Part shown: positions 30,435-47,810 of the stretch, one piece after another
Layout: each line of letters begins with the position of its first letter
Numbering within the stretch: the stretch's first letter is position 1
Assembly (NCBI GenBank): GCA_947503625.1
Contig: CANNEK010000004.1
Location: 310,001-374,000 of the forward strand
DNA length: 64,000 bases
Source of the DNA: an uncultured Kordiimonas sp.
GTDB taxonomy: Bacteria > Pseudomonadota > Alphaproteobacteria > Sphingomonadales > Kordiimonadaceae
Reading direction: 5' to 3'
Position numbers and translations under genes: made by a program
Notes under the pieces: generated by a model
What the model was told of the DNA's origin: nothing
Database searches by the model: none
The model's input: only the letters and a program-made list of their open reading frames with translations

Positions 30435-32060
30435 ATGGCATCGGCCACATTCGGATTACATGAGGTTTATCAACAGATTAAATCTGTTGCCTACGGTATT
30501 TGGCGGAAGCGCTGGTACATGATGGCAACAACTTGGTTGATTTGCCTGGTGGGCTGGGGTGCGGTGTCCACGATGCCTTATCGCTACGAATCAAGTGCGC
30601 AAATTTACGTTGATACCGAAACCATTCTGCCGACCATTGTTCGTGGCTTTGGTATTGATATCGACGTTACACGTAGAATTGATGCGGTTAAAAACCAACT
30701 GGTTACCAGGCCCAACCTCGAAAAAATCATTCGCCGGTCTGAGTATCTGGAAAGACTGGCAAATAATGATGCAGCGCTCAATTCGCTTGTGGCAGAAATG
30801 CAGGGCGACATTCGTGTGACGGCCCTTCAGGGCAGCATGTATCGCATCCAGTATGAAATTTCGGATGGCAGGTTAAGTGACAGGCAGCGCGCGGAAGTCG
30901 CTCGCAATGTTGTCAATAACCTGCTGTCTTTCTTCCTTGAAGGTGGGGCTGAAGGTGCCAACGGGAATAATAACGAGAATGCTCAGGATTTTCTTGATCA
31001 GCAGATCAAGGACTATGAAGAGCGTTTGAGCGCCGCCGAAACGATTCACGCCAAATTCAAGCAGGACAATATCGAATATATTGGCGGTCAAAGCAGCTTC
31101 TTGTCTCGCCATGATGAGGCTAAGGAATCTTTGCGGGAAACCCGGAACAAAATTGGTGAATTGAATGTCACGTTGTCCACATTGCAGGAGCAGATTCAGA
31201 ATGTTCCCGCAACCATTCGGGAGGCCAAGTCATCCCGGGTGAGAGGCGGAGGTGACGACGACCCCTTGCAATCAAGAATCACCGAACTTCAGAAAAAACT
31301 CGATAGCTTGCGCACATTTGGTTACCGGGACAAGCACCCTGATGTCGTGAACGTGAGCCGGCAGATAGAAGCACTACAAGCGGAGTTCAAGCAACAGCAG
31401 GATGATATTGCGAAAGAACTCTCGGCGTCTGCAGAGGCAGGCAAGAACTCCAACTTTACCACCGAAACGCCCAATCGCCTGTACGAGCAATTGATGTTTA
31501 ACATTATCGACACACGCACTCAGGTGAGGACGCTGGAGCAGCGAGAACTTGAACAGCAGAAACTGGTTGCTGAAATGGAAGAGAAAGCAAAACGGGTTCC
31601 GGAAATTGAAGCGCGCGAAAGCCAGCTTCAACGTGATTTTGCTCAACTTCGAAGCTTTTATAACGATCTTCTGGAAAAGAAACAGGATTTGGATTTGCGG
31701 GCCGACGTGGAGAATGCGGATGGTTCCGTGAGCTTGAGGGTGGTCGAGCAACCAAACCTTCCAACGCGCCCAAGTGGTCCACCACGACTGTTGTTCATGA
31801 GCGGAATGCTGGTCTTCGCTCTTATGTCAGGCGTAGGATTTGCACTTGTTTTGTCTGTTTTGAGACCTGTAGTGCTGACAGTCGAGCAATTGCGATCACA
31901 ATTTGATTTGAATATTTTGGGTAACGTTTCTCGCTCTCTTTCAGAAGAAGAAACTCGTCAACGCAGCATGGAGCTGTTGATGTTTGCTGGCGCCACGGCG
32001 GCACTCTTTACGGTGTTTGCCGGGTTTGTGGTGTTCGACATGATTGGGGGACCAGGCTAG
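30435..32060 (+). CDS. XrtA-system chain-length determinant (Wzz type)
   Basis: A polysaccharide co-polymerase that sets chain length and couples synthesis to export (TIGR03007-like). The 541-residue protein has transmembrane helices at about 28-47 and 448-468 bracketing a periplasmic part with long coiled coils. A third C-terminal helix (about 515-537) is visible. Near its end the PNLPTRPSGPPR proline-rich motif typical of Wzz precedes the second helix. It has no kinase domain; the kinase is the next gene. Confidence 0.92.
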   Translation: MASATFGLHEVYQQIKSVAYGIWRKRWYMMATTWLICLVGWGAVSTMPYRYESSAQIYVDTETILPTIVRGFGIDIDVTRRIDAVKNQLVTRPNLEKIIRRSEYLERLANNDAALNSLVAEMQGDIRVTALQGSMYRIQYEISDGRLSDRQRAEVARNVVNNLLSFFLEGGAEGANGNNNENAQDFLDQQIKDYEERLSAAETIHAKFKQDNIEYIGGQSSFLSRHDEAKESLRETRNKIGELNVTLSTLQEQIQNVPATIREAKSSRVRGGGDDDPLQSRITELQKKLDSLRTFGYRDKHPDVVNVSRQIEALQAEFKQQQDDIAKELSASAEAGKNSNFTTETPNRLYEQLMFNIIDTRTQVRTLEQRELEQQKLVAEMEEKAKRVPEIEARESQLQRDFAQLRSFYNDLLEKKQDLDLRADVENADGSVSLRVVEQPNLPTRPSGPPRLLFMSGMLVFALMSGVGFALVLSVLRPVVLTVEQLRSQFDLNILGNVSRSLSEEETRQRSMELLMFAGATAALFTVFAGFVVFDMIGGPG

Positions 32061-32100
32061 TGAAAACGGCCTTGTTCTATTCAAGTGAGTTTATTGTCGT

Positions 32101-33219
32101 ATGGACCTGATTGAACGCGCGGCGAAGAACGCCAAGAAGAAAGACGAAGAGGGTAGTTCTCTGGTAGAACGGGCCGCCAAGAAGTCTGGCGAAAGTCCTT
32201 TTGATCGCGCTGCTGGCAGCGGTATAGGTAACCCCGAGAATCGTAAGGCCGACCCGTCGTCTCTCAATCCGACACTGACGGAAAATGAGAAACCGAAACC
32301 TTTTAAAGGTATTGGCGCTCCCGGCGCAAAGCCAAAGCCGAAGGCAGCCAACGAAGATCCGGCTCCCAACACAGGTAAACTGGCTGCGAAAGACAATGAC
32401 AACGACAGCTCACCAAGATCTCTGGCCATTGGTGATACGGCGGGCTCACTGTCCACGCCCAAAAAGGCGCGCAAGCGAAAACCTCCTGAAGAGATCGACC
32501 TCGTTGCCCTCAGGGAAGCCGGGTATATAACCCCGGATATGCCGCCCAATCTGATGTCTGAAGAATTCAGGATTATCAAGCGCTCTCTGTTGCTGAACGC
32601 GTTTTCCAAAAACGAGAAGAAGCAAGATGGCGTTAACAACAACGTTATACTCGTGACAAGTTCAAACCCGAGTGAGGGTAAAACATTTTGCACCATTAAC
32701 CTCGCTTTATCGATCGCGACAGAGCAGGACGTGACGGTGTTGCTCGTTGACGCAGATTTCTCGAAACCGGAGATTTTAAACCGTCTTGGCGTTAAAGGCG
32801 GGCGCGGTCTTATGGATGTAGTTGCTGATGGAAACATGGACGTTGGGGATTGCCTGGTTCGCACGAACATTCCTAATCTGGTCTTGTTGCCTGCCGGGCG
32901 TCAGCACAATTTGACAACTGAACTTCTGGCCAGTGATCGCATGGCTAAGATGGTTACTGAAATATCCTCTCGCTATTCTGATCGTATAGTTATTTTTGAT
33001 TCTCCACCCGTGCTTGCAAGTTCTGCAGCGTCGGTACTCGCGCTTTATATGGGACAGATCGTTTTTGTTATTGAAGCTGAAAAAACTACAGAGCCTCAGA
33101 TCAAAGAGAGCATCGGAATGATCAGCGCGTGCGAGAATATCAATCTTTTGTTGAACAAAACTCGTTATAACGGCTCCAATAAGAAGTTCGCATCTTACTA
33201 CGGCTACGGCGGACGATAA
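32101..33219 (+). CDS. XrtA-associated tyrosine autokinase
   Basis: A cytoplasmic BY-kinase that partners the chain-length protein (TIGR03018-like). The 372-residue protein starts with repeats of the form (I/V)ERAAKK. A basic, proline-rich linker precedes the kinase domain: Walker A SNPSEGKTFCT (about 191-201), Walker A' VLLVDADFSKP and Walker B VIFDSPPV. The C-terminus has a tyrosine group, ASYYGYGGR, the likely autophosphorylation site. Cycles of this phosphorylation usually control polymer length. It follows the chain-length gene by 40 bases. Confidence 0.93.
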   Translation: MDLIERAAKNAKKKDEEGSSLVERAAKKSGESPFDRAAGSGIGNPENRKADPSSLNPTLTENEKPKPFKGIGAPGAKPKPKAANEDPAPNTGKLAAKDNDNDSSPRSLAIGDTAGSLSTPKKARKRKPPEEIDLVALREAGYITPDMPPNLMSEEFRIIKRSLLLNAFSKNEKKQDGVNNNVILVTSSNPSEGKTFCTINLALSIATEQDVTVLLVDADFSKPEILNRLGVKGGRGLMDVVADGNMDVGDCLVRTNIPNLVLLPAGRQHNLTTELLASDRMAKMVTEISSRYSDRIVIFDSPPVLASSAASVLALYMGQIVFVIEAEKTTEPQIKESIGMISACENINLLLNKTRYNGSNKKFASYYGYGGR

Positions 33220-33229
33220 AGGACCGCCG

Positions 33230-34729
33230 GTGTCAGTCTCCTATTCCTTTTGCAGAGCAACGAAAGCTGGTCTGACCCCAGGCCTTAGAGCTTCGCTTGG
33301 TTTTATCTTGTTTGCCTTTTGGGTTTCAGGCGCCGTTTCTGCACAGCATATTTATATTGACCCTCGCGCTGAAGTTCGGGTTACGGGGACCGACAATGCC
33401 AACCTGACCGAGACCAACAGAGAATATGATGGTGTCTTGAATTCAGCCATCGGTCTTAACGCAAGGATTGATGGAAACAGAATTAACGTGGCGCTGGACT
33501 ACTCGCTGGATCACTTTTTGTTTTTGTCGGATGGCGGTGACGAGTTCAGGCAAAACATGTTTGGTACACTGGATGCGGAGGTTTGGGAGGACCATTTGAC
33601 GTTGAATGGTCGTGCGAGTATGCGGCAGCAATTCCTTGATCAACGAGGCAGTCTGTCAGGTAGTGCGGCCAACAGAACCGCTAACCGGCGATTGGTCCAA
33701 GGGTATACAGGTACCGCCATATTCCGTACTGGCATACGGGATTTTGCAGATTTGCGGGTCAACTACAGAATTGGCATACAGCGAAGCCCCGCGGATGACC
33801 TTAACGACGACACCTTGCCGATTAACTTCTCTGATTCCACCACCCACGAAATATCTGCCTCCATCGATTCTGGCGATCGTTTCCGTAATCTGCAATGGCG
33901 CCTGTTCGCAGATACATCTCGCGTCACGCGCTCGCTCGATGTCAATGATTTCAGGCGAGAGCGTGCAGGGGCAGAACTCACGTTCAAGATGAATCGTTTC
34001 CTGCAGCTGTTTGGCAATGTGAACGTGTCCGGCAACGACTTTCAGAATTCTGTCCTCGCGGAAGATGGCTTTGGCTGGGAAAGTGGATTTCGCTGGACGC
34101 CGGGGCCAAAGCTGGACCTCAGCGTGGCATATGGTCGCGAAGGTGCCAGAGAAATATGGTATGCGTCTCTACAACATTTCTTTTCGGCAAGGTTTAACTT
34201 TTCCGGCAGTTACACAGATAGAATCACCGCTAACTCTATAGTTTCAAACGATAATTTAAACAACCTCTCTTTTAACAATGAATTCGGTATTGTTAATCAG
34301 GAGAATTTGCCAATTGACGAAACGGACCCCAATTTTTCCTTCTCTGACGTAGACTTTCGCCAGCGATCAGCTGTTGGTACACTAACGCTTCAACAAAAGC
34401 GTACAAGAAGCTATATTAGTGGTGACTATGAGTGGCGAACATTTGACGACGACTCAGGAACAGGGGAATCCTGGGGGGTATCAACCGGGGTTGATCATGA
34501 AATTAACGAAAATACCTCATTAAGTGCTCGACTTAGCTTTCGCCAAAGTCTATTTGAAGATGGGGTCCGAGTGGATGAAATTGTAGTGGGTAATTTGAGC
34601 TGGACGAGAACAGTTTCAAAATACTTTAGGTTTGCGCTTTCCTATGATCGCTCTCAGCGTTTTTCAAACGCTGATGGAGAGAACCTGACGGAAAATGCGA
34701 TAACACTATACCTAAGAGGGACGTTTTAG
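33230..34729 (+). CDS. PEP-CTERM-associated outer-membrane barrel protein
   Basis: The 499-residue product has a long signal peptide (about 1-38, ending VSAQ) and then alternating polar/hydrophobic beta strands rich in Asn, Ser, Thr and aromatic residues. It ends TLYLRGTF, with the terminal phenylalanine typical of outer-membrane barrels. This matches the TIGR03016 family of XrtA loci. It may be the outer-membrane channel or surface anchor for the polymer. The start is GTG at 33230 with AAAGGA upstream. Confidence 0.85.
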   Translation: MSVSYSFCRATKAGLTPGLRASLGFILFAFWVSGAVSAQHIYIDPRAEVRVTGTDNANLTETNREYDGVLNSAIGLNARIDGNRINVALDYSLDHFLFLSDGGDEFRQNMFGTLDAEVWEDHLTLNGRASMRQQFLDQRGSLSGSAANRTANRRLVQGYTGTAIFRTGIRDFADLRVNYRIGIQRSPADDLNDDTLPINFSDSTTHEISASIDSGDRFRNLQWRLFADTSRVTRSLDVNDFRRERAGAELTFKMNRFLQLFGNVNVSGNDFQNSVLAEDGFGWESGFRWTPGPKLDLSVAYGREGAREIWYASLQHFFSARFNFSGSYTDRITANSIVSNDNLNNLSFNNEFGIVNQENLPIDETDPNFSFSDVDFRQRSAVGTLTLQQKRTRSYISGDYEWRTFDDDSGTGESWGVSTGVDHEINENTSLSARLSFRQSLFEDGVRVDEIVVGNLSWTRTVSKYFRFALSYDRSQRFSNADGENLTENAITLYLRGTF

Positions 34730-34735
34730 CTCCGT

Positions 34736-35773
34736 ATGTACGAAAGCTTTTACAATCTGCAGGGTCGCCCGTTCCAGTTAACGCCGGATCCCCGTTTTTA
34801 TTTCAGTTCGCGGACGCACAAGAAAGCGATGGCGTACCTTACCTATGGTTTGAACCAGGGCGAGGGTTTCATTATTGTTACCGGCGATATCGGTACCGGT
34901 AAAACCACGCTGGTACGCCATCTGTTTGATACACTTGATCGCAACGAGTTTATTGCAGCGATGATTGTGAGCACGCAGTTGAGTGCTGAAGACCTCCTTC
35001 GAAGCGTTGTCGCGGCTTTTGGTCTTGATGCTCAGGCGGAAGACAAAGGCCAATTGCTGGCGAGGCTCGAAAAACATCTCCGTGAACAATTTGCTCGTGG
35101 CAGGAGAGCGCTTCTTGTCGTTGATGAAGCTCAAAACCTTTCAAACGCGGCATTGGAAGAAATGCGCATGCTGTCCAATTTCCAGGATGGTGACAAAGCG
35201 CTTGTTCAAAGCTTTCTCGTGGGCCAGCCTGAATTTCGGGAACGTGTGTTTTCTGCGCCGGAGCTGGAGCAGCTTCGCCAGCGTGTCATCGCAACCCACC
35301 ATCTGGAGCCAATGGAGCAGGAAGAACTCGCTGATTACATCCAGCATCGGTTGAGCCTTGTGGGCTGGGACAACGATCCCTGCTTTACGGCAGACGCCGT
35401 CGAGGCGATTTACAAACATTCTGCAGGTGTTCCTAGACGACTAAACACTCTTTGTTCTCGCGTACTGCTATATGGTTCTCTGGAAGAGTTACACAATATT
35501 GACGGCGATACGATCGCAGCTGTTGTTGCCGATATGACCAGCGATACGCGCCCGGTTACGGCAACCTCTTCTGCGGTCGTCATGCCACCGCCAACCCCGC
35601 AAAACGACTCTACAGTGCCATTGGAGGCATCTAAGCCTACAAAAAGCGATAAGGTTATGGACGACCGCATCAGTCAGCTTGAAACCATGATGAAGTCTCA
35701 GGACCAAACACTTCAGCAATTAACCCAACTTATGGCCAAGCTTGCTGGTGGTGACAAGAAAGACGACGGGTAG
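34736..35773 (+). CDS. XrtA-associated AAA ATPase
   Basis: A 345-residue ExeA/GspA-like ATPase (TIGR03015). It begins MYESFYNLQGRPFQLTPDPR. Walker A GDIGTGKTTL is at about 51-60, Walker B LLVVDEAQN at about 122-130, and sensor and arginine-finger regions follow (GVPRRLNTLC). The C-terminal tail (about 265-345) is low-complexity ending in a short coiled coil. It probably gives energy or regulation to secretion of the polymer. It begins 6 bases after the barrel gene. Confidence 0.93.
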   Translation: MYESFYNLQGRPFQLTPDPRFYFSSRTHKKAMAYLTYGLNQGEGFIIVTGDIGTGKTTLVRHLFDTLDRNEFIAAMIVSTQLSAEDLLRSVVAAFGLDAQAEDKGQLLARLEKHLREQFARGRRALLVVDEAQNLSNAALEEMRMLSNFQDGDKALVQSFLVGQPEFRERVFSAPELEQLRQRVIATHHLEPMEQEELADYIQHRLSLVGWDNDPCFTADAVEAIYKHSAGVPRRLNTLCSRVLLYGSLEELHNIDGDTIAAVVADMTSDTRPVTATSSAVVMPPPTPQNDSTVPLEASKPTKSDKVMDDRISQLETMMKSQDQTLQQLTQLMAKLAGGDKKDDG

Positions 35774-35776
35774 CGC

Positions 35777-36691
35777 ATGCTCTCGACGATTCTGGATGAC
35801 GTTGCTGAGGTGCCTCGCCGCGTTGGAAGTCAGTCCGGGCAGCCGTTAAATGTTTTTTCTGTCGATGTTGAAGAGTGGTTTCAGGTAGGGGCATTTGAAA
35901 ACACGCTGGATAGAGGCGATTGGAACAGCCTCGAAAGCCGCGTTGAACATCAGACCGAACAGGTTCTTGATTTACTAAAGCGGCACAGCGTCAGCGCAAC
36001 TTTTTTTTGCCTTGGATGGGTGGCCGAACGATTTCCAAGCCTGCTACGCAAGATAGCAGACAACAACCACGAAATTGCCTGCCATGGCATGGACCATCAG
36101 CGTATTTTTTCCATGGCCCCAGAGCAGTTCTCCAAAGACATTCAAAAAGCCAAGTCTCTTCTGGAGGAAGCGTCCGGCTGTGAAGTTGTTGGCTATAGAG
36201 CTCCAAGCTTTTCCCTGACATTTGAGGTTTGGAACTTTTATTCTATTCTGGATGCGACTGGATTTCATTATTCGTCAAGCGTGGTGCCGGCCAAGACAGA
36301 CCACTATGGATCGGAAGGTGTTCCAAGGCTGCCGTTTTACCCACTGCAGAACTGCGACATCATAGAGGTGCCAATGACAGTAGTTCGTATTCCCGGTCGG
36401 ATGCTGCCTGCCTCCGGAGGCGGATATTTCAGGCTGTTACCTCAGACACTGTCGCACTGGTTGATGAATAAAGCACTTAAGCAAACCGGCATTGGCACGA
36501 TATTTTACATGCATCCATGGGAAATAGACCCTGAGCAGCCATATGTGGCCAGCGCTCCTGTTTTGTCTCGTTTCAGGCACTATACAGGCCTGAAGAAAAT
36601 GGAAACGAAACTGGACAGACTACTGCAAAACGGCCGTTTTAATCGTGTGGATCATTTTCTTGCAACAGAGTTCGAACAGAGGCAAAGCTAA
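35777..36691 (+). CDS. XrtA-system polysaccharide deacetylase
   Basis: A NodB-fold metal-dependent deacetylase (TIGR03006-like, with a DUF3473 C-terminal part) that should remove acetyl groups from the polymer. The 304-residue sequence shows FSVDVEEWFQ with the catalytic and metal-binding acidic residues near 29-32. The metal motif HGMDH is at about 99-103, GYRAPSFS follows, and the C-terminal histidine is in FYMHPWEID. No signal peptide is visible, so it is likely cytoplasmic. It lies 3 bases after the ATPase gene. Confidence 0.93.
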   Translation: MLSTILDDVAEVPRRVGSQSGQPLNVFSVDVEEWFQVGAFENTLDRGDWNSLESRVEHQTEQVLDLLKRHSVSATFFCLGWVAERFPSLLRKIADNNHEIACHGMDHQRIFSMAPEQFSKDIQKAKSLLEEASGCEVVGYRAPSFSLTFEVWNFYSILDATGFHYSSSVVPAKTDHYGSEGVPRLPFYPLQNCDIIEVPMTVVRIPGRMLPASGGGYFRLLPQTLSHWLMNKALKQTGIGTIFYMHPWEIDPEQPYVASAPVLSRFRHYTGLKKMETKLDRLLQNGRFNRVDHFLATEFEQRQS

Positions 36692-36692
36692 A

Positions 36693-37733
36693 ATGGCGCT
36701 AACCGTTAAGCAACTTGATGCCGCAGAGTTCGATGCTTGGGATGCATTCGTGACAAGCCAGCCTGCAGCAACCTTTTGCCATCTTGCCGGTTGGAAGACA
36801 GTGATAGAGCAGGGTGCTGGTCAAGACTGCCCCTATTTGCTCGCGTTGCAGGATGGTTCCGTCGTTGGTGTTTTACCATTGTCGGTTAAAAAACACCCCA
36901 TATTCGGCAAGGCGTTGATATCAAACATGTTCTGTGTCTATGGCGGGGCAGTTGCTGTCGACAAGGACGTGGAACGTGCTCTGTATGACGGTGCTTGGGC
37001 CATCACCCAGCAGTTGGGTCTGACCATGTTTGAAAACCGGTCTGTGATCCGGCATCATGCAGATGACGAAAACTGGATTGAAGCAGCACAATCGGCGACC
37101 TTCTCGCGTGACCTTGATGAGAACGACGAAGCTCAGTTGCTTGCCGTTCCAAGGAAACAGCGAGCCGTCATTCGAAAAAGCCTCAAGAATGAACTGCAGA
37201 CAGACTGGAACGGAAACTTAAACGTTTTCTACGATCTGTATGCCCACAGTGTTCTTTCTTTGGGTACACCTGTGTTCCCCAGGAAATTGTTTGCGGCAAT
37301 GGTTGACGTATTCGGGGATGCCGTGGAAACCCAGATTACGAGAACAGCCGATGGCACCGGGGTAGCAAGCCTGATGAGCTTCTACTTTAGAGATACGGTT
37401 ATGCCTTACTACGCAGGGGGAACAAGCGAAGTTCGGCGGCTGGCTGCTCATGACTTTATGTACTTCCAACTGATGTTGCATGCTCGTGAACGGGGTTTTT
37501 CAAAGTTCGATTTTGGCCGCAGCAAGATTGATAGCGGGCCCTATAAATTCAAGAAAAACTGGGGATTTGAACCGGTTGAACTGGGATACGAAATTCGACT
37601 GAAACCCGGTGCTGAAGCTCCCAACCTGTCGCAGCAGTCCGGCCCTTTTGCGATATTGAGCAAGATATGGAAAAAGCTGCCGTTAGGCGTTTCAAAAATA
37701 CTTGGCCCACCACTTGCGCGCCACTTGGGATAA
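36693..37733 (+). CDS. FemAB-family XrtA-associated protein
   Basis: A 346-residue GNAT-fold protein of the FemAB type (TIGR03019), related to enzymes that transfer amino acids from aminoacyl-tRNA. The C-terminal half includes YAGGTSEVRRLAAHDFMYFQLM and FDFGRSKIDSGPYKFKKNWGF, typical of this group. In XrtA loci its substrate is unknown; it may decorate the polymer or a protein. The ATG at 36693 is one base after the deacetylase stop; an open frame to 36645 overlaps that gene. Confidence 0.9.
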   Translation: MALTVKQLDAAEFDAWDAFVTSQPAATFCHLAGWKTVIEQGAGQDCPYLLALQDGSVVGVLPLSVKKHPIFGKALISNMFCVYGGAVAVDKDVERALYDGAWAITQQLGLTMFENRSVIRHHADDENWIEAAQSATFSRDLDENDEAQLLAVPRKQRAVIRKSLKNELQTDWNGNLNVFYDLYAHSVLSLGTPVFPRKLFAAMVDVFGDAVETQITRTADGTGVASLMSFYFRDTVMPYYAGGTSEVRRLAAHDFMYFQLMLHARERGFSKFDFGRSKIDSGPYKFKKNWGFEPVELGYEIRLKPGAEAPNLSQQSGPFAILSKIWKKLPLGVSKILGPPLARHLG

Positions 37734-37739
37734 TCTGTC

Positions 37740-38972
37740 ATGGCACGTATCCTTTTTTTGGCACACAGAATTCCATATCCACCCAATAAAGGGGACAAAA
37801 TCAGGTCCTGGAACTTTTTAAAGCACCTTCTTGATGCCCATGAAGTCCATGCCGCTTTTTTTGTCGATGACAAGCAAGACCTTGAACACCTTCCATTTCT
37901 TGAGGAAAGGTGTGAGAGCGTGTGTCACCAGTTTGCTTCGCCGTTGTTCCAGAAAATGATGTCAATCAGGGGAATGCTGCGGGGAACGTCACTAACAGAA
38001 AACGCGTACCCGTCGCCCTTGCTTCGGCGCCATGTTGCCAGACTAATTGAAGGAAACAAGGTTGATCTTGTTTTCTGCTATTCTGCCGCCAGTTTTGGGT
38101 TTCTGCCGGCGGACTTGTGCGGCATTCCGGTGATAACTGATTTGGTCGATGTGGATTCTGCCAAGTGGATGGCATACGCGCAGAATAGTAGCGGCATCAA
38201 GCGCGCATTGTTTGCCAGGGAAGCACGAACACTTGCCCGGTTTGAAGCTGGTGTTGTTCAGTCAAGCAATGCCAGCCTGCTTGTTAGTGAGGATGAGGCC
38301 ACACTGATGCGGAATAATCTGAAAAAGATTGGTTCGCAGAGCGAGAGTGTCTCGGGGATATCAAATGGGGTCGATTGCGACGCATTTTCGCCGGACCGCT
38401 ACCAGGCCCCAATTAAAGGGAAGCGTCTGATTTTCACTGGTGCCATGGATTATCAACCAAATGTGGACGCTGTGGTATGGTTTGCCGAAAATGTTATGCG
38501 ACAGCTTCGGATTGATATGCCAGATGTGAAATTCATTATTGCCGGCCGACCGGTCGCCCAAGCGGTCCGCAACCTCGATGCGATTGATGGGGTCAATGTC
38601 CTGGGGGGTGTTGAAGATATGGCAGCCGAGATAGCAAAAGCAGATATTGTTTTGGCACCCTTGCAGACCGCAAGAGGCATTCAAAACAAGGTTCTAGAGG
38701 GGATGGCTATGCAAAAGCCCGTGGTCGCAACGTGGGCTGCTAATGAAGGAATTAATGCACCAGACAGAGAAGCGGTTTGGATCGCGGAAACGCCAGATGA
38801 CTATATTAATGCTATAAAAAAACTATTGGGTCCAAGCTGCGATAATACGCTTGGCAATAATGCCCGGCGGTTTGTTCTGGATAGTTTTACATGGTCATCA
38901 AGCTTCAAGAAGCTTGATAACATACTCAATCGTCTTCTCCTTCAATCGGCTGCCAGGGAGAAGGTTTCATGA
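37740..38972 (+). CDS. XrtA-system glycosyltransferase (TIGR03087 type)
   Basis: A 410-residue GT-B glycosyltransferase. It starts MARILFLAHRIPYPPNKGDKIR, the usual opening of the TIGR03087 group. The C-terminal GT1-like domain has IFTGAMDYQPNVDAVVWFAENV, FIIAGRPVA and PLQTARGIQNKVLEGMAMQKPVVAT. It is expected to add a sugar to the lipid-linked repeat unit. Its stop overlaps the start of xrtA (ATGA), so the two are translationally coupled. Confidence 0.93.
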   Translation: MARILFLAHRIPYPPNKGDKIRSWNFLKHLLDAHEVHAAFFVDDKQDLEHLPFLEERCESVCHQFASPLFQKMMSIRGMLRGTSLTENAYPSPLLRRHVARLIEGNKVDLVFCYSAASFGFLPADLCGIPVITDLVDVDSAKWMAYAQNSSGIKRALFAREARTLARFEAGVVQSSNASLLVSEDEATLMRNNLKKIGSQSESVSGISNGVDCDAFSPDRYQAPIKGKRLIFTGAMDYQPNVDAVVWFAENVMRQLRIDMPDVKFIIAGRPVAQAVRNLDAIDGVNVLGGVEDMAAEIAKADIVLAPLQTARGIQNKVLEGMAMQKPVVATWAANEGINAPDREAVWIAETPDDYINAIKKLLGPSCDNTLGNNARRFVLDSFTWSSSFKKLDNILNRLLLQSAAREKVS

Positions 38973-40501
38973 CCCTCGGCATGCGACACCATATCGCCAC
39001 CTTCTCCGTTGGTTTTGTTTTGCTGATTGTTTCGTGGTGGGACGCTGTCGATCACATGGTTGGCATTCTATGGAACGTAGATGTGTTCGCTCATGGTTTG
39101 CTCGTGCCATTTGTCAGTTTGGCTATCATTTGGTCCCGCCGTGAAGACTTGTCGCATATTCCAGCTCGTTTTTCACTGCTTGGAGTGCCTGTTCTGGTCG
39201 TTGCATGCATGCTGTGGATTCTGGGTTCACTGCTGGAGGCAAAACTGTTTGCCCATGTTGCACTGCTGATTGCAGTACAGGGTTTGGTCATCATGTCTCT
39301 CGGTCGAGAGATTTACATTAAAATACTGTTCCCCATGCTGTTTCTCTTTTTGACGATTCCCTTCGGCTACGAGCTTGTCGGGCCGCTTCAAACCATGACT
39401 GCGAGCATGGTTATCTGGGTGTTGGAGCTGCTGGGGGCCAACTATACCGTTGAGGGCATGGTCATCGGCTTGCCGAGTGGCTACTTTGAAGTTGCAGAAG
39501 CATGCGCAGGGGTCAAGTTCCTCTTTACCAGCTTGGTTATGGGTATCTTGTTGTCCAACCTGATTTTTAAAAGCTGGGTCCGTAGAGTAACGATTGTCAT
39601 CGTGAGTATTTTGCTTCCAATTCTTGCCAATGGACTGCGTGTCCTGGGTATTTTGGGAATTTCTGAGCTGACAGACCAGAATTTTGCAAAAGGTGTAGAC
39701 CACATCGTTTATGGATGGGTGTTTCTTTCCATCGTACTTTTCGCCTTGATCGCTGTAGCATATCGTTTTTCCGACAAAACCATGGGTGATTCCGAGCCAC
39801 CTCGAAAATCCGATGCAAGTGTGCCATCACCCGGTCTGGCAAAAAATGCCACTGTGTTTGTGTCGTTGCTGTTACCTGTTTCGGCATATTGGGTCGCGCC
39901 CAATGGCCCGCCTTCAACCCTTTCTCATGTCGAAAGTTCACTAACTCAGTTGTTTTCGGCTGCGCCAACCGGCTACCGGCTTTTAACCAACACTGGATTA
40001 ATCTCGCAACCCTATGCGTTGAATTCAAAATCCCAGTCCAGAAGCCTGCTACGTCGGCGGGGGACGGTTTTCAATGTTTACCGCGCGGAATACAGCGAGC
40101 TGGGGCCGGGAACAAGACTGTTTCAACCTGCCAACAGCCTCGCTGGCCCTAATTGGAAGGAAATGAAGAGTGCGGGAGAAGCGATGCAGCTTAGCTGCGG
40201 TGTTCAGATCGAAGAGAAACTGTTTCGCCGCGGTGACGAGCGTATGTTGATATGGCCGGTTTATTTGGTCGAAGGACTACCTGTCAGGAGTGGCCTGCAG
40301 GAAAAACTCAATACGGCCCGCCTTCTTTTGACGAAAGAAAAAGCCCGCGGCACGATTCTGGTTCTAAGTACCTTTGTTGGAGATGATACTGCTGCACCTC
40401 GCGAAGTTTTTTCAGAATTCTTATCGACTTTTTGGTCAGATAGTTCTTTATGGGGGGATGGGGGTCCAAGCGAAAAAGGCATGAATCTATGTGCGGAATA
40501 A
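38969..40501 (+). CDS. xrtA: Exosortase A fused to EpsI domain
   Basis: Exosortase A is a multi-spanning transpeptidase-like protease that cuts PEP-CTERM tags and probably attaches proteins to a surface anchor. The N-terminal 270 residues have about eight transmembrane helices. The catalytic triad candidates are Cys179 (EACAGVKF), Arg224 (NGLRVLGI) and His245 (VDHIVYGW). The rest (about 290-510) is an EpsI-like periplasmic domain with YRAEYSELGPGTRL and later LIWPVYLVEG. Total length 510 aa is typical for XrtA. The candidate substrate is the PEP-CTERM protein at 19036-21591. Confidence 0.95.
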   Translation: MTLGMRHHIATFSVGFVLLIVSWWDAVDHMVGILWNVDVFAHGLLVPFVSLAIIWSRREDLSHIPARFSLLGVPVLVVACMLWILGSLLEAKLFAHVALLIAVQGLVIMSLGREIYIKILFPMLFLFLTIPFGYELVGPLQTMTASMVIWVLELLGANYTVEGMVIGLPSGYFEVAEACAGVKFLFTSLVMGILLSNLIFKSWVRRVTIVIVSILLPILANGLRVLGILGISELTDQNFAKGVDHIVYGWVFLSIVLFALIAVAYRFSDKTMGDSEPPRKSDASVPSPGLAKNATVFVSLLLPVSAYWVAPNGPPSTLSHVESSLTQLFSAAPTGYRLLTNTGLISQPYALNSKSQSRSLLRRRGTVFNVYRAEYSELGPGTRLFQPANSLAGPNWKEMKSAGEAMQLSCGVQIEEKLFRRGDERMLIWPVYLVEGLPVRSGLQEKLNTARLLLTKEKARGTILVLSTFVGDDTAAPREVFSEFLSTFWSDSSLWGDGGPSEKGMNLCAE

Positions 40502-42387
40502 CCGGCTATATGACGCACGACGGATCTCCGGTTGATGAGGGTCTCTTAAGGCGGATGAACGACCAGATTAATCACCGGGGCCCGGATGGCGACGGTTATT
40601 TTTTTGGTAGCAGTATTGGGCTCGGCCACAAGCGTTTGTCGATTATTGATATCGCCGGTGGACATCAGCCGATGTACAGCCCCGGTAAAGAATGCGTACT
40701 GACGTATAACGGTGAAATATATAATTTCCAGTCACTGCGCCGCGAACTCGAAGGCCTGGGACACAAATTTTCCACGCAGTCTGATACTGAAGTTCTCATG
40801 ACGAGCTACATTGAGTGGGGAGAAGCGTGTGTCGAGCGACTGCGGGGCATGTTTGCCTTTGCCATATGGGACGGTCCAAAGCGCAAGTTGTTTCTGGCAC
40901 GAGACAGACTGGGCATCAAACCCCTCTACTATGCATTTATGCCGAATGGCGACTTTTTCTTTGCTTCGGAGCTGAAAGCTCTTCTTGTTAACCCGGCATT
41001 GCCAAGAAAGCTCAGAATAGATGCTTTGGAAGACTATCTGACTCTTGGCTATGTACCAGACCCCAAATCAATCGTTGAAGGCGTGATGAAGTTGCCACCG
41101 GCAACGACGATGACAATTGAAAAGGGTAGTAAAAACCCTCGCATGACTTGCTATTGGCAACCGGGTATCGGCGTTGCTGGCCTGACGGTTTCACGGTCGG
41201 AAGATTTGATGGCGCGGCTCGAGGATGCTGTAAAAATGCGCATGATTGCGGATGTGCCGCTTGGTGCGTTTTTGTCAGGCGGTGTCGACTCTAGCGCTGT
41301 GGTCGGATTGATGGCCGGCTTGGGCTCGGCGCCGGTAGAAACCTGTGCGATCGGTTCAGAAGACCCGAATTTTGATGAAAGTGGGTATGCCCAGTTGGTC
41401 GCAGACCATTTTGAAACAAGTCATCGCTGGCGATTGGTATCCGCAACAGACCGGTCTCTGATTGATCGCATTGCTGATGTTTATGACGAACCGTTTGCGG
41501 ACCCGTCTGCCTTGCCGACGTACAGAGTGTGCGGTTTAGCAAGAGAGAAGGTGAAGGTTGCTTTGTCCGGCGACGGCGGAGATGAATTGTTTGCCGGATA
41601 CCGGCGTCATCGCTTCCACATGGCGGAAGAATCTCTTCGCGGCAGGCTGCCGATGCTTATGAGGCGTGCTGTTTTCGGACCTCTCAGTGTTCTGTACCCG
41701 AAACTTGATCGCGCACCACAGTTTTTGCGTGCAAAATCAACTTTCGAGGCCCTTGCGCGGACGTCAGCCCAGGCTTACTGCCAGAGCGTCAGTCGCACTC
41801 CTGACCGCGACCGGAAGCGTTTGCATTCGCGCCGTATGCGTAAGTTGCTGGCGGGATATCATCCACATGACCGCTTCACGGAACTTGCTGACGAGGTTAA
41901 AGGTGCAGACCCGCTTTCAGTCATCCAATACATTGATATAAAAACCTATCTTAGCGGTGACATCCTGACCAAAGTGGATCGCGCAAGCATGTCTCATAGT
42001 CTGGAGGTTCGTGTACCGCTTCTTGATCACAAGTTTGTGGAATGGGGTTTGAGGGTTCCTGCTCGCGAACGCATTGTCGACGGCGAAGGAAAAGCAGTTT
42101 TCCGAGATGCTCTGAAGGGCTTTTTGCCGGACGAAACCTTGAACCGTCCAAAGAAAGGTTTTGATGTACCTACTGTGAGCTGGCTTCGAAATGAACTTGC
42201 AGACGATACAATGTCGCTCGGTGAAAGCGAGATTTTTGCTGATAGTGGTTTGTTCAATATGTTCGGTATTCAGCAAATGGCTGAAGAACATGTCATAGGT
42301 TCAAGAGATCACCATACCAGTCTATGGTCTTTGATCATGTTGGAACGGTCTCTCAGGAAATTGAACCTGGAGATGCCAACAGCTTAA
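40489..42387 (+). CDS. XrtA-system amidotransferase (AsnB-like)
   Basis: A glutamine-dependent amidotransferase of the asparagine synthase type (TIGR03108-like). The 632-residue product starts MCGITGYM, so Cys2 is the glutaminase nucleophile. The synthetase half has the PP-loop SGGVDSSAVVGLMAG and later VALSGDGGDELFAGYRRH and the DHKFVEWGLRVP region. In XrtA loci it probably amidates a sugar or protein of the system and does not make free asparagine. The ATG at 40489 overlaps the xrtA end by 13 bases. It converges with phoB, one base away. Confidence 0.93.
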   Translation: MCGITGYMTHDGSPVDEGLLRRMNDQINHRGPDGDGYFFGSSIGLGHKRLSIIDIAGGHQPMYSPGKECVLTYNGEIYNFQSLRRELEGLGHKFSTQSDTEVLMTSYIEWGEACVERLRGMFAFAIWDGPKRKLFLARDRLGIKPLYYAFMPNGDFFFASELKALLVNPALPRKLRIDALEDYLTLGYVPDPKSIVEGVMKLPPATTMTIEKGSKNPRMTCYWQPGIGVAGLTVSRSEDLMARLEDAVKMRMIADVPLGAFLSGGVDSSAVVGLMAGLGSAPVETCAIGSEDPNFDESGYAQLVADHFETSHRWRLVSATDRSLIDRIADVYDEPFADPSALPTYRVCGLAREKVKVALSGDGGDELFAGYRRHRFHMAEESLRGRLPMLMRRAVFGPLSVLYPKLDRAPQFLRAKSTFEALARTSAQAYCQSVSRTPDRDRKRLHSRRMRKLLAGYHPHDRFTELADEVKGADPLSVIQYIDIKTYLSGDILTKVDRASMSHSLEVRVPLLDHKFVEWGLRVPARERIVDGEGKAVFRDALKGFLPDETLNRPKKGFDVPTVSWLRNELADDTMSLGESEIFADSGLFNMFGIQQMAEEHVIGSRDHHTSLWSLIMLERSLRKLNLEMPTA

Positions 42388-42388
42388 C

Positions 42389-43075
42389 CTATTGGTTGTT
42401 GTCCAGAGCGTAGCCCGCAGACCTTACAGTGCGGATGTAGTCTTTTCCGCCAGCGTTCATCGCTTTGCGAAGCCGTCTGATGTGGACATCAACCGTTCTT
42501 GGTTCAACATACACATCATGGCCCCAAACCGAATCGAGCAATTGCTCCCGAGAAAAAACCCGGCCGGGGTTTTCCATAAAATGACGCAACAGGCGATATT
42601 CGGTTGGTCCCAGATGAATTGATGTGCCGTTTCTGGTGACCCGGTGGGAAACATTATCAAGGCGAATATCTTCGAAAGAGAGTTCCTTTCCTGCCAGGGC
42701 AGGGCGAACCCGTCTGAGAACAGCCTGAATACGTGCGATCAATTCCTTGGGCGAGAAAGGTTTGACAACATAGTCATCAGCACCGGTTTCAAGGCCTCGA
42801 ACCCGATCAGGTTCGTCGGCACGTGCAGTCAGCATAATGATGGGTACATTGGCAGTTTCGCTATTGCGACGTAGCTGGCGGCATATCTCCAGGCCGGAGA
42901 GGTTGGGTAGCATCCAGTCCAGCAAGATAACATCAGGTGTATCTTGTGCGGCGAGATAAAGGCCTTCTTCACCATCGGCAACCGCATCGACTTTATAGTC
43001 CGCGCGCTCAAGATTGTAGCGCACCAACTCAGTGATATTCAGATCATCTTCAATCAGTAATACTCTGGTCTTCAC
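42389..43075 (-). CDS. phoB: Phosphate-response regulator PhoB
   Basis: An OmpR-type response regulator: receiver domain (1-120) with acidic pocket ED at 9-10 and phospho-acceptor Asp53 in ILLDWMLPN, and a winged-helix domain (about 130-228) with FSREQLLDSVWGHDVYVEPRTVDVHIRRLRKA-type residues. The 228-residue length equals PhoB. I chose GTG at 43075, which has AGAGGA upstream; an in-frame ATG at 43105 lacks one. It lies downstream of phoR's partner role but is transcribed first here toward the left; the gap to phoR is 169 bases. PstSCAB and phoU are not in the window. Confidence 0.9.
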   Translation of the reverse strand: MKTRVLLIEDDLNITELVRYNLERADYKVDAVADGEEGLYLAAQDTPDVILLDWMLPNLSGLEICRQLRRNSETANVPIIMLTARADEPDRVRGLETGADDYVVKPFSPKELIARIQAVLRRVRPALAGKELSFEDIRLDNVSHRVTRNGTSIHLGPTEYRLLRHFMENPGRVFSREQLLDSVWGHDVYVEPRTVDVHIRRLRKAMNAGGKDYIRTVRSAGYALDNNQ

Positions 43076-43244
43076 AGCGCAGGTTCCTCTATTCCCATTG
43101 TACACACTAGCTATTGTTAACGAGCAATGTCATGGCCTTTGATGGCATACAGATACTGGCCCTATGTTACATTTTAATGGCGTGCCTGGCGAGGAAATGT
43201 AGCTTTTGTGACACGCACTTTATCATGGTAGTCCGCCGGATGGT

Positions 43245-44525: not shown

Positions 44526-44750
44526 GGGTTTTGACTGCTATTCCGGATTTTACGTGTTTATGACTTACATGAAGGCGTCGCAGTTAAAAACACCAAAGTT
44601 ACATTTCCATGACGAACAGTTTTGATGAAAGTTGATATTTTACTAGGAAAAATATAGCATTATGGCTTATATAACTTCTATCTGGTTGGGGCTTGGCTCT
44701 TTTTGAGCGCCAGTGATACGTAGTGTTATTCGCATCATAACGGAAAAATC

Positions 44751-45500
44751 GTGACTGAACGGCCAGATACATCTGATTTTGAAGACGAAGTTACCCAAAA
44801 ATTGTCTGATCGCAGGCAACTGCTTAGGCTTGGTGCCGCAGGTTTGCCGATGGTCCTGACCTTGAAGGCGTCCGCGCAACAAGCGGTTATTTCGCAGTTG
44901 CAATGTATTATAAAGATGCCTCTGCGGTTACGCTTTCTGGTGGATTGTGATGGCGCAGTCTGGGTTGGCACCAGATTCATTCGGTATGAGAATGGTAAAG
45001 GCTGGAAAGTCAGCCATATTACCCGTTTTAAAAACAATGCGTCACAGATTTTCCCGGCTGGAGCAGCCGCAAGTGCTTTTAGGCCCGTAGATTGCCCTGC
45101 CGTAGTTTGTGATGATGACGATGATGATGGTGGCAAAAACAATGACGGTGATTACACCGGCGGTGGTAATGGACTGTCAGAACTCGACAGGCTTTTGAAT
45201 TCAGGTGTACCGTCCAATGCGTCCGAGATAGCGAGCTATTCCAACAGCCGCAGTAAAGATGATGATGATGACGATGACTGTGATCCAGATTGGCAGGACA
45301 GCGGCTATGCATTTTACCAAATTAATAAGAACACGGAGATCACGCCAGGCGAGATAATTAATGGTACAGGAAGCGCTAACAATGAAGCTCAGGCTTTATT
45401 CGTTTCTTTGTCTGTTAAATACAGCCAGGACCTGGAAGGTCAGTCATCATGGCCTGGCATTTCATGTATTGTTTCTATTTTGAACTATCTAAATCCATAG
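44751..45500 (+). CDS. Secreted-looking protein with two Asp runs, unknown
   Basis: I recognise no family. The 249-residue product starts at GTG with a weak ribosome-binding site. After about 20 acidic residues comes a twin-arginine-like export signal (DRRQLLRLGAAGLPMVLTLKASAQQA in two pieces around residues 20-45). The mature part has six cysteines, at 52, 66, 115, 120, 177 and 239. Two aspartate runs touch cysteines: Asp121-126 after Cys120, and Asp170-176 before Cys177. A Gly/Asn-rich linker lies between them. It heads a set with PqqD-like, HprK-like and nucleotidyltransferase genes and is the natural candidate for their target. Confidence 0.7.
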   Translation: MTERPDTSDFEDEVTQKLSDRRQLLRLGAAGLPMVLTLKASAQQAVISQLQCIIKMPLRLRFLVDCDGAVWVGTRFIRYENGKGWKVSHITRFKNNASQIFPAGAAASAFRPVDCPAVVCDDDDDDGGKNNDGDYTGGGNGLSELDRLLNSGVPSNASEIASYSNSRSKDDDDDDDCDPDWQDSGYAFYQINKNTEITPGEIINGTGSANNEAQALFVSLSVKYSQDLEGQSSWPGISCIVSILNYLNP

Positions 45501-45532
45501 TGATCGACCCTTTAAGGCTAGAGTGCTGACAC

Positions 45533-45838
45533 ATGGCAGCAGGCCCCATTTCAAATTCCGCCAGATGGACATCGGATCCAAATAACTATCTGGTACAGGA
45601 ATTTGACGATACATTCTTTGTTTTTTTCCGACCGTCCGGCGAGACACATTTTCTCAATTTTCTATCGCACGGGGTGCTCGATTTAGTGTCATCCAAAGAT
45701 GTTGGTGTTGCAGATATCGGCACAGAAATGCGCGTCCGTTTTGGTGTTAGTGAGACCGAACTCCCTGATTCCCTGATAAAACAGACAATCGAGCAACTGG
45801 ATGAAACAGGTTTGATAGAACCTGTTGGTAGCCAATGA
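45533..45838 (+). CDS. HPr-rel-A system PqqD-like peptide chaperone
   Basis: A 101-residue winged-helix protein of the PqqD type, a family that binds leader peptides for modifying enzymes. Recognisable parts are the N-terminal strand region FDDTFFVFFRPSGETHFLN, the central helices with HGVLDLVSSKD, and the C-terminal helix IEQLDETGLIEPV. This length and the neighbours match the HPr-rel-A PqqD family (TIGR04353). It starts 32 bases after the Asp-run gene, and its stop overlaps the kinase start (ATGA). Confidence 0.85.
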   Translation: MAAGPISNSARWTSDPNNYLVQEFDDTFFVFFRPSGETHFLNFLSHGVLDLVSSKDVGVADIGTEMRVRFGVSETELPDSLIKQTIEQLDETGLIEPVGSQ

Positions 45839-46758
45839 CCCTGCGGGCGTTAAAATCATTTGATAGACGTGATCTGCACAAGGCTTTGAAACAAGGTAGT
45901 TTTACGTTGCAGCTTGGCCCGTTTTCCCACCTGATTTCAGGCTCTAGCCCGGCGTTGCTGGACTTTTTGCAGGATACCTACCGGGATTACTCTGTAGAGA
46001 TGTCGCCAAGTGATGTGACGGAGGTTTTGCTCAATATACGCGCTCCAAACCTGTTCAGGCGGTTTATCCGTCCGCAGATTATGCCGGACCCGGGTTTTGA
46101 TGTACCCGCAGTGCCTCTTCCCAAGCGTATGGCTCCTCTAGCATATGAAATGGGCATGAATCTGTCTATCGCCCTTAAATGCTGTCGGTTTGTGAATATC
46201 CATGCTGGTGTCGTCGCCGATGATCATGGTGCTATTCTGATGAGTGCTGCCTCGGGGTCAGGGAAAAGCACACTGACAGCAGCCATGATGCAGCATGGTT
46301 ATCGGCTTTTTTCCGATGAGTTTGCGTTGCTGGGCCTTGATGAGCCCCTTGTACATCCGTACCCGCGGCCAATTTCGCTTAAGCAGGAAACCATCCCGAT
46401 TGTTCGCGAACTGGTTGGGGCGGACTGGCTTAGCAAAACTGTTTCCGGAACCCCGAAGGGTGATATAGCTTATTATCGTGCTCGTCCTGAAGATCTTGCA
46501 AGAGCTCATGTCCCTGCACCTGTAAAACTGATCCTGTTTCCGAAGTTTGAGACTGGGGCCAATCCTTTTGCTCAAAGACTGAACCCGGCAGAAGCCATTA
46601 TTCGGCTGGTTCCCGCATCGACTAATTATTCGCTGCTGGGTGAAGAAGCCTATAAAACCCTGGCGAGTTTAGTCGAAAATGCGTCGGCATTTGAGTTAAC
46701 ATACGGCACAACCGAGCAAAGTATCGATCTCGTCAAACAGCTTACGGCCAGTCATTAG
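45835..46758 (+). CDS. HprK-related kinase A
   Basis: A 307-residue relative of HPr kinase/phosphorylase (TIGR04352 type). It has the P-loop ASGSGKST at 139-146, an upstream His123 in NIHAGVV, and Asp161-Glu162 in LFSDEFALL, matching the nucleotide and metal sites of HprK. The N-terminal 110 residues differ from HprK and may bind the partner. Such kinases occur beside PqqD-like proteins, also in some peptide pathways. The phospho-acceptor here is unknown. Translationally coupled to the PqqD-like gene. Confidence 0.88.
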   Translation: MTLRALKSFDRRDLHKALKQGSFTLQLGPFSHLISGSSPALLDFLQDTYRDYSVEMSPSDVTEVLLNIRAPNLFRRFIRPQIMPDPGFDVPAVPLPKRMAPLAYEMGMNLSIALKCCRFVNIHAGVVADDHGAILMSAASGSGKSTLTAAMMQHGYRLFSDEFALLGLDEPLVHPYPRPISLKQETIPIVRELVGADWLSKTVSGTPKGDIAYYRARPEDLARAHVPAPVKLILFPKFETGANPFAQRLNPAEAIIRLVPASTNYSLLGEEAYKTLASLVENASAFELTYGTTEQSIDLVKQLTASH

Positions 46759-46769
46759 GCGCATTATAA

Positions 46770-47810
46770 ATGGACACGCTCAAACAAATTGTTGGTCTGT
46801 CGGCTTTACCTGCCGCTGTCATGGATCAGATAAAGCTTCTGAATAGCGCAGATGCTAACCATGTGTTGGGGCAGATGGCATCCAGACTGAAGCATGAGGC
46901 TGACGGCAACCTCAAGGATATCTTCAACAATGCGCTTTTGCGCGCGAAACGTGATCATACGATGTTGACGTTTGAAATGAACCGAGTTGAACGAGCCTTA
47001 AGCGAGGCAGGGGTTATCCCTGTTATCCTGAAAGGGGGTGCCTACGTTGCTCGTAATATGGCTGCGGCTGCTGGCCGCAGAGTAAGCGATTTGGATATTC
47101 TTGTAGCTTTTGAAGAGCTGGAAAAGGTGGAAGAGGCCCTTCTTGCGGCGGGTTGGGAGCCAGAAGAAACCACCGACAATGAATACGATCAAGATTATTA
47201 CCGCCAGCACATGCACGAGTTGCCTCCTCTTCGCCACGCCAAGCGAGGGACAGTGCTCGACGTTCATCACGCATTGTTGCCCCGAACCTCGCGCTTTTCT
47301 GTTGATGTGAGCAAAATGATGGATGCCGCCTTGCAGTTGCCAGATCACAAACTAAAGACATTCAGTGAAATTGACATCTTTATCCATTCGGCCGTTCATG
47401 GGTTTGCAGATGGCGCTCTCGACGTTCCAATACGAACGCTGGTGGAACTGTTTTTGATTTATAATCACCTGTCTGGTGAAGACATTGACGAGATCGTATC
47501 AAGGGCAACGGACTTGGGTGCAGCAGTACCGGTTGGCATGGCCCTGTGGGCGGTCGGACGTGTGTTTGGGGTCGAACGGGCAAGCGCGTCTTCGGGCGAG
47601 TTAATAAAGCCATATCGCTATTTGATATTCAAATGGGCTGTCCTGTCGAAAACCCGAAACGATATTTCTGCTCCGTTTGCGAAAACATTTTTGTATGTGA
47701 GAAGTCATTATTTGCGGATGCCATTCTACCTGTTGTTTCCGCACCTTATAAAAAAAGCAATTGCGTGGCGACCAAACTCAAAGACACCAAGCGAGTTACC
47801 GTTTCCCTGA
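46770..47810 (+). CDS. Nucleotidyltransferase of HPr-rel-A cassette
   Basis: A 346-residue protein of the PF14907-type nucleotidyltransferase family. The active-site pattern is KGGAYVARNM (from Lys88) followed by GRRVSDLDILV, where Asp107 and Asp109 form the metal-binding pair. The helical C-terminal part is of unknown function. It lies 11 bases after the kinase gene and closes the cassette. It may transfer a nucleotide to a protein, peptide or small molecule; the substrate cannot be read from the sequence. Confidence 0.85.
   Translation: MDTLKQIVGLSALPAAVMDQIKLLNSADANHVLGQMASRLKHEADGNLKDIFNNALLRAKRDHTMLTFEMNRVERALSEAGVIPVILKGGAYVARNMAAAAGRRVSDLDILVAFEELEKVEEALLAAGWEPEETTDNEYDQDYYRQHMHELPPLRHAKRGTVLDVHHALLPRTSRFSVDVSKMMDAALQLPDHKLKTFSEIDIFIHSAVHGFADGALDVPIRTLVELFLIYNHLSGEDIDEIVSRATDLGAAVPVGMALWAVGRVFGVERASASSGELIKPYRYLIFKWAVLSKTRNDISAPFAKTFLYVRSHYLRMPFYLLFPHLIKKAIAWRPNSKTPSELPFP

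Follow-up and report, generated by a model that had tools for sequence, protein, structure and literature searches.

Phosphorylated peptides and the HPr-rel-A cassette

Kinases related to HprK that act on ribosomally made precursors have been described in two kinds of clusters. Among the phosphorylated lasso peptides, as set out in PMC9266682, which also treats ThcoK and PsmK, the paeninodin kinase PadeK phosphorylates one Ser residue of the precursor, and PsmN of the pseudomycoidin cluster, annotated as a nucleotidyltransferase, adds a hexose to the phospho-Ser. Linear polyphosphorylated peptides (LPPs) are encoded mostly in Bacillota, often near capsule polysaccharide loci, by clusters that comprise a precursor, a discrete RRE, an HprK-like kinase, a nucleoside triphosphate (NTP) transferase, a SipW-like peptidase and a transporter; several phosphates are carried by one Ser of the precursor, which is phosphorylated by LppK, and the function of the products is unknown (PMC13381572, 2026). 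The HPr-rel-A system (models TIGR04352 and TIGR04353) is widespread, with its kinase scoring over the cut-off in 64 of 98 relatives of the genome studied here and in 51 of 397 genomes across the phylum, but its one-line family descriptions name no substrate and full-text literature searches for the system, its model names and related terms brought up no paper on it among the matches listed. Here we analyse an HPr-rel-A cassette of an uncultured Kordiimonas sp. (GenBank assembly GCA_947503625.1), located in a stretch of 64,000 nucleotides of contig CANNEK010000004.1 (positions 310,001 to 374,000, hereafter the window), and propose as its substrate P1, a small exported protein encoded by the first gene of the cassette.

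The cassette consists of four consecutive rightward open reading frames (ORFs), P1 to P4, which we confirmed at 44751–47810 of the window, all on the forward strand, as given in a preliminary description of this DNA. The enzyme families named there also held, each with a score over the curated cut-off: P2 (45533–45838) is a PqqD-like peptide chaperone (TIGR04353, 40.5 bits versus 35), P3 (45835–46758) is HprK-related kinase A (TIGR04352, 231.8 bits versus 200) and P4 (46770–47810) is a nucleotidyltransferase-fold enzyme (PF14907, 143.9 bits versus 31.2). P2 to P4 are thus the HPr-rel-A system of NCBI, in whose definition we presume the PF14907 gene to be counted, whereas P1 (44751–45500, 249 aa, GTG start), in the slot in front of the enzyme genes, fits no family model. 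The source genome has a single TIGR04352 match and a single PF14907 match. In P3, residues H123, G141, G143, K144, S145, D161 and E162 are invariant in 25/25 aligned sequences, and the P-loop (ASGSGKST, residues 139–146, 46249–46272), described earlier as intact, is indeed so. Invariant in 25/25 aligned sequences of P4 are K88, G89, R103, D107, D109 and D164, three of which (R103, D107 and D109) lie in the segment GRRVSDLD (residues 102–109, 47073–47096), which we take to be the nucleotidyltransferase motif; the catalytic roles of the invariant residues of both enzymes are presumably those of the known families. A sequence search for relatives of solved structure aligned the His, P-loop and Asp region of P3 with HPr kinase structures (best 1ko7, E=3.3e-4) and gave nothing convincing for P2 or P4. 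Unlike HPr kinases, P3 has DE in place of DD, and the cassette includes no HPr-like gene.

The likeness to LPP clusters extends to the precursor, the discrete RRE, the HprK-like kinase, the NTP transferase and the setting near a polysaccharide locus. The SipW-like leader peptidase, MsbA-like exporter and YxxP leader of LPP clusters have no counterpart here; the cassette instead has a twin-arginine (RR) signal on P1 proteins of ~120–320 aa. No SpI/SipW-like leader peptidase is encoded among the four genes, and the named upstream neighbours are the amidotransferase, PhoB and PhoR; the LPP leader motif YxxPxVLxHQxIxFETxxS is absent from P1, whose sequence contains no Tyr up to the end of its signal. 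A passage search of the text of PMC13381572 returned none of the terms Proteobacteria, Pseudomonadota, twin-arginine, PqqD or HPr-rel. With phosphorylated lasso peptides the cassette shares an HprK-like kinase, there acting on a precursor Ser, and an enzyme of the nucleotidyltransferase type such as PsmN (PMC9266682), but neither a B2 peptidase nor a lasso cyclase accompanies it: no B2 leader peptidase was recognized by eye among the listed ORFs, and the nearby amidotransferase is that of the XrtA exopolysaccharide locus (TIGR03108, 857.1 bits versus a cut-off of 816.9; lasso cyclase model, 258.7 versus 525). Because the peptidase, the cyclase and the leader features were looked for and are missing, we did not file the cassette as a member of either group. 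By analogy, its mode of action likely resembles that of LPP and phosphorylated lasso systems, and the best reading of it is that of a putative proteobacterial counterpart of these peptides exported by twin-arginine translocation (Tat). The action of a kinase and a nucleotidyltransferase on one exported protein had been called an unusual chemistry; the same type of enzyme pair has precedent on ribosomal peptides of the lasso and LPP groups, which supports the assignment of P1 as a substrate.

Distribution and conserved features of P1

Similarity to P1 at E ≤ 0.01 was detected in 29 of the 98 relatives, and homologs were aligned in three sets, A2 (sphingomonad type), A3 (other alphaproteobacteria) and A4 (Kordiimonas family). 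A search that forced the presence of the C-terminal motif described below was biased and was redone with the signal only and with whole-genome profiles. As kinase genomes we counted 66 of the 98 relatives, namely the 64 over the TIGR04352 cut-off plus G024 and G033, whose nearly full-length matches fall slightly short of it. Profile A3 matched 62 of these 66 genomes and none of the 32 others (Fisher p = 9e-22, uncorrected for kinship). Three genera, g26, g29 and g40, each hold genomes of both states, and the A3 match and the kinase are concordant throughout. In family f1, A3 matched 24/26 kinase genomes versus 0/3 others, the match covering mainly the signal region, and P1 itself as the query found 26/26 versus 0/3; in family f5, the Sphingomonas type, both A3 and A2 gave 13/13 versus 0/11. 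The four kinase genomes missed by A3 all have P1, either by similarity (G020 and G024) or in the slot by a hidden Markov model (HMM) of the signal (G033, locus L082, and G058, locus L108).

Analysis of gene order covered 141 loci, with some genomes represented twice, of which 132 have a kinase ORF and the other nine (L094–L102) are orphan loci. The signal HMM placed P1 in the slot at 118 of the 132 kinase loci. One of the remaining 14, L181, carries P1 at the slot as part of a longer, merged frame; for the other 13, where the slot counts as empty, whole-genome searches found P1 in 12, all except the genome of L185. At L156 P1 lies ~4 kb upstream, and at L154 the contig ends directly before the kinase, cutting off the slot sequence. 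Among the 25 loci of the Kordiimonas family (L054–L078), phmmer matched P1, P3 and P4 in 24 each and P2 in 22; among the gaps are P1 and P2 at L072, where P1 was recovered by the signal HMM, and P2 at L054 and L059. Two copies of P1 are found at L058, L074, L076 and L080. In one genome, G070, P1 is encoded on a contig other than that of the kinase and PF14907 genes and is immediately followed by a TIGR04353 gene (41.1 bits versus 35; pair at L102 4755-5512, reverse strand), and there is no TIGR04353 ORF within 700 nt before the kinase. We regard this joint relocation as the strongest individual indication that P1 and P2 function together as a pair. The earlier inclusion of the first gene in the cassette is borne out in that P1 is retained upstream in the genus and family, tracks the kinase by genome and has moved once together with a PqqD-like gene; P1 as a partner of HPr-rel-A is well supported in this order.

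Orphan copies of P1 are present elsewhere in several genomes, including the source genome, where the paralog (G000:C3:670737-671279; L094 5735-6328, reverse strand) has a signal and PG[IV]SCxxS but no Asp runs. It adjoins an ORF that by eye resembles a sigma factor, and similar orphans occur in several Kordiimonas genomes.

Outside the order the kinase mostly remains accompanied by an RR-signal protein. Of the 51 genomes across the phylum with TIGR04352 over the cut-off, a count that leaves out three weak matches (G146, G196 and G312), 15 belong to this order. In the 36 others, 37 kinases were examined, and an RR-signal slot protein was found at 34 of them; since the slot filter demanded an RR signal, the constancy of the signal is partly built into this figure and a signal-less slot protein would fall among the other 3. 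Counted by eye, 18 of the 34 slot proteins have a C-terminal [ST]CxxS, mostly SCWxSF. In the second class, made up of the other 16, C[ST]xSG occurs near the mature start in 5 (0.11 expected). A CxxS motif was tried as a unifying feature of this class and set aside as weak (10/16 versus 5.0 expected). The loci of the second class (L208, L209, L218, L227, L228 and L233–L243) encode an RR signal and no C-terminal motif, some with SPGxW-like segments. L185, a Rhodovibrionaceae cassette, has an RR-signal protein of 227 aa that carries no [ST]CxxS.

P1 of the window has zero Pfam matches, and NCBIfam gives only matches far below the cut-offs, such as one to thymidylate synthase (E=0.056, 12.6 bits versus 108.35), which were taken as chance. 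These library scans covered, besides P1 of the window as the only A4 member, homologs of A2 and A3 (22 of A2 against Pfam and NCBIfam, 23 of A3 against NCBIfam only), which had only weak matches, some to Tat-signal models. The three alignments are linked in profile–profile comparison (A4–A2 96.9, A4–A3 97.3 and A2–A3 98.5% probability), with the A4 links confined to the N-terminal part. All three have the RR region and, close to the start of the mature protein, a Ser that precedes a Cys by 3–4 residues; they also share the C-terminal [ST]CxxS, which in P1 of the window is S238-C239-x-x-S242 (45462–45476), a candidate modification site from the alignments and slot counts. This motif is present past the signal in 100/100 distinct slot proteins found via the N-terminal signal HMM and in 3.1% of shuffled mature parts. 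Exactly two Cys residues are found, within the part counted, in 61 of the 69 P1 proteins under 260 aa from outside the Kordiimonas family. The conserved Cys pair might be joined in a disulfide. The structure model of P1 of the window has a mean pLDDT of 74.0 and a pTM of 0.61, with ten-residue block means of 92–97 for residues 51–110 and mostly 80–93, with one block at 65, for residues 181–249; the model of a sphingomonad P1 is weaker (pLDDT 69.7, pTM 0.52). Fold searches of PDB with the two models returned nothing convincing (best E 2.4 and 3.1).

The proposed export signal and leader, an RR-x-L-L signal at residues 21–43 of P1 (44811–44879), was read by eye. RR is found in 98/100 P1 signals, counted with a pattern that already demanded R[RK], and the position 16 residues past the first Arg is occupied by Thr or Ser in 75/100 P1s versus 3/13 TIGR01409 matches of the source genome, the 13 (at least one of them, L255, in a doubtful frame) being the script-readable subset of 20 matches. 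A Tat-signal model of Pfam, built for an Fe-S protein, was matched by 3/22 members of A2 (best E=0.0037).

Proposed modification of P1 and rival explanations

We consider it fairly probable, judging from sequence comparisons, that P1 is the dedicated substrate of HPr-rel-A. P2 would bind P1 and present it to P3, the most likely contact being the conserved N-terminal segment, at once the export signal. P3 would phosphorylate P1 while it is still in the cytoplasm, with the invariant S242 of the C-terminal [ST]CxxS as the most likely target; P4 would then extend the phosphate with a group derived from a nucleotide or a sugar, and the finished protein would leave by the Tat route to act in the envelope or extracellular matrix. 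Of these steps, the assignment of P1 as a substrate of the enzymes appears likely, S242 as the site and the chemistry of P4 are informed guesses, and the donor of P4, Tat export and the matrix role of P1 are what we infer. The substrate role had already been suggested in the preliminary description and gains from the co-occurrence, gene order, motifs and invariant enzyme residues, the chemical modification being its putative part. As a tentative extension, which we hold to be possible rather than probable, the export signal may double as the leader of a ribosomally synthesized and post-translationally modified peptide (RiPP): it is the one element common to both classes of P1 across Pseudomonadota and is for that reason proposed as the leader. 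A PqqD-type domain would then read a twin-arginine signal, with the kinase and nucleotidyltransferase finishing the protein in the cytoplasm before Tat export, and P1 would represent a class of matrix proteins that are phosphorylated, capped with a nucleotide or sugar and exported by Tat.

P1 suggests a substrate for an enzyme set that lacks a described one, and a partner with one conserved Ser/Thr-Cys-x-x-Ser narrows the question of the HPr-rel-A target to a single site-bearing protein. If the proposal is true, the LPP logic of RRE, HprK-like kinase and NTP transferase would extend from peptides of Bacillota to exported proteins of proteobacteria, and RiPP-type recognition would be joined to Tat export.

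Several observations weigh against the substrate proposal. P1 is not among the 20 matches that the curated Tat model TIGR01409 gives in the source genome up to E=5, and the model weakly matches only 2/23 A3 and 1/22 A2 members; since it misses P1, the Tat-like label given earlier comes from reading the RR-x-L-L motif by eye. Among the 62 genomes matched by A3, at least 11 had themselves supplied A3 rows, none of those 11 being in f1 or f5, as had at least 8 of the 13 A2-matched f5 genomes for A2, and the 100/100 motif count is biased upwards, the signal HMM having been trained on 90 motif-bearing sequences. The genome of L185 has the kinase genes and no A2 match. In PMC13381572, deletion of the NTP transferase LppN caused no detectable change in the host used. 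The possibility, raised at the outset, that the first gene would be absent or unrelated at most cassettes does not hold in this order; outside it, 3 of the 37 kinases (G175, G183 and G129) have no RR-signal protein in the slot by our filter and, counted by eye, 16 of the 34 RR-signal slot proteins have no C-terminal [ST]CxxS.

PqqD-like chaperones serve small-molecule RiPP pathways, and the core enzymes of the cassette are common to lasso and LPP clusters, so that P1 might be a RiPP precursor in the narrow sense, the active molecule being a C-terminal fragment around [ST]CxxS that is set free in modified form, while the rest acts as a carrier. The four-gene cassette, however, has no peptidase or exporter, and the confident parts of the structure model, together with Asp runs of up to twelve residues in family P1s, would be needless in a mere carrier; we regard this explanation as unlikely. 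A slightly less likely alternative is that P1 stays unmodified and is an exported adaptor or binder of the product of the enzymes, such as an XrtA matrix glycan or lipid that bears phosphate. An exosortase indeed lies ≤20 kb from the kinase in 34/34 genomes outside f5 that have both on one contig, but the same link fails in f5 (0/10) and 17 of the 36 genomes outside the order have no exosortase over the cut-off; furthermore, P1 moved together with P2 in G070, and the conserved Ser/Thr-Cys-x-x-Ser suits a modification site. That P1 is an ordinary Tat-exported protein standing beside the cassette by ancestral synteny alone seems very improbable: the persistent PhoR-like neighbour does show old synteny, but the co-occurrence persists where P1 is outside the slot and across splits within genera, profile A3 finds P1 in 0/32 genomes that lack HPr-rel-A genes, and P1 stays while other neighbours change, as with DAHP synthase, which adjoins the cassette at 22/25 family loci versus 0/26 loci of other relatives.

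The two Asp runs of P1 abut Cys residues, as first described: D121–D126 (45111–45128) directly follows C120 and D170–D176 (45258–45278) directly precedes C177. Cys within two residues of at least four Asp is found in 13/28 family P1s, and the Asp runs beside Cys could on that ground be chemically important sites, an idea we think has very little chance of being right. Runs of at least five Asp are missing from 14/28 family P1s and 70/72 others, the six aligned orphan paralogs have no Asp linker, and in P1 of the window both runs fall in a variable linker that is a low-confidence part of the predicted structure. Their presence in 14/28 family P1s, against 12/677 greedy ORFs of ≥100 aa at loci L054–L113 (P1s included), is more than chance; 2/72 other P1s have them. 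The Asp–Cys positions, earlier singled out as the feature to be conserved, are by the alignments a lineage-specific elaboration of the linker, the conserved unit being the C-terminal [ST]CxxS.

Genomic neighbourhood of the cassette

The cassette follows an XrtA exopolysaccharide locus (30435–42387, forward strand), in which profile matches identified a chain length determinant, tyrosine autokinase, outer membrane protein, ATPase, deacetylase, FemAB, stp1 glycosyltransferase, exosortase A and amidotransferase, and two reverse-strand genes, PhoB (42389–43105; TIGR02154, 340 bits versus 296.2) and a sensor kinase divergent from P1 (43245–44525). The phoBR pair reported earlier is thus upheld for phoB, whereas the sensor kinase is only PhoR-like (308.9 bits versus an equivalog cut-off of 334.2).

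Kinase and XrtA system are no more than 20 kb apart in the window, in families f1, f4, f7 and f8 and in G033 of family f6, where both the kinase and the exosortase narrowly miss the cut-off, but P1 matches no PEP-CTERM model and f5 genomes keep the two systems unlinked. The two genes nevertheless tend to occur in the same genomes: across the 98 relatives, 62 have both kinase and exosortase, 4 the kinase only, 18 the exosortase only and 14 neither. Beyond the 34 and 10 genomes with both on one contig, 18 have them on different contigs. Outside the order, 19 of the 36 kinase genomes have an exosortase over the cut-off. The XrtA linkage noted at the outset therefore applies to the families around Kordiimonas, not to f5 and only partly outside the order, and XrtA as an obligate partner is ruled out by the 17 outside-order genomes without an exosortase over the cut-off and by its unlinked state in f5.

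The PhoR-like gene is the most persistent of the neighbours checked. Detected at E ≤ 1e-30, a threshold that possibly includes other histidine kinases, it lies upstream on the opposite strand at 20/25 family loci, 20/26 loci of other relatives and 58/80 named loci; of two further cases checked, that of L112 resembles PhoR/PnpS without reaching the cut-offs, and no match was obtained for the ORF picked in L106. In the gap from phoR to P1, a Pho box is hinted at by matches to at least 10 of 11 positions in 6/25 family and 3/68 other upstream regions (shuffled expectation 2.4% and 0.5%); an E. coli-type consensus gave a weaker result. The site in the window (44598–44615, reverse strand) matches 10 of 11 positions, and five other family loci have similar sites on the phoR strand, so that the six may serve phoR rather than P1. 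Downstream of the cassette, ORFs of the window were recognized by eye as DAHP synthase, NAD synthase and glutamyl-tRNA synthetase.

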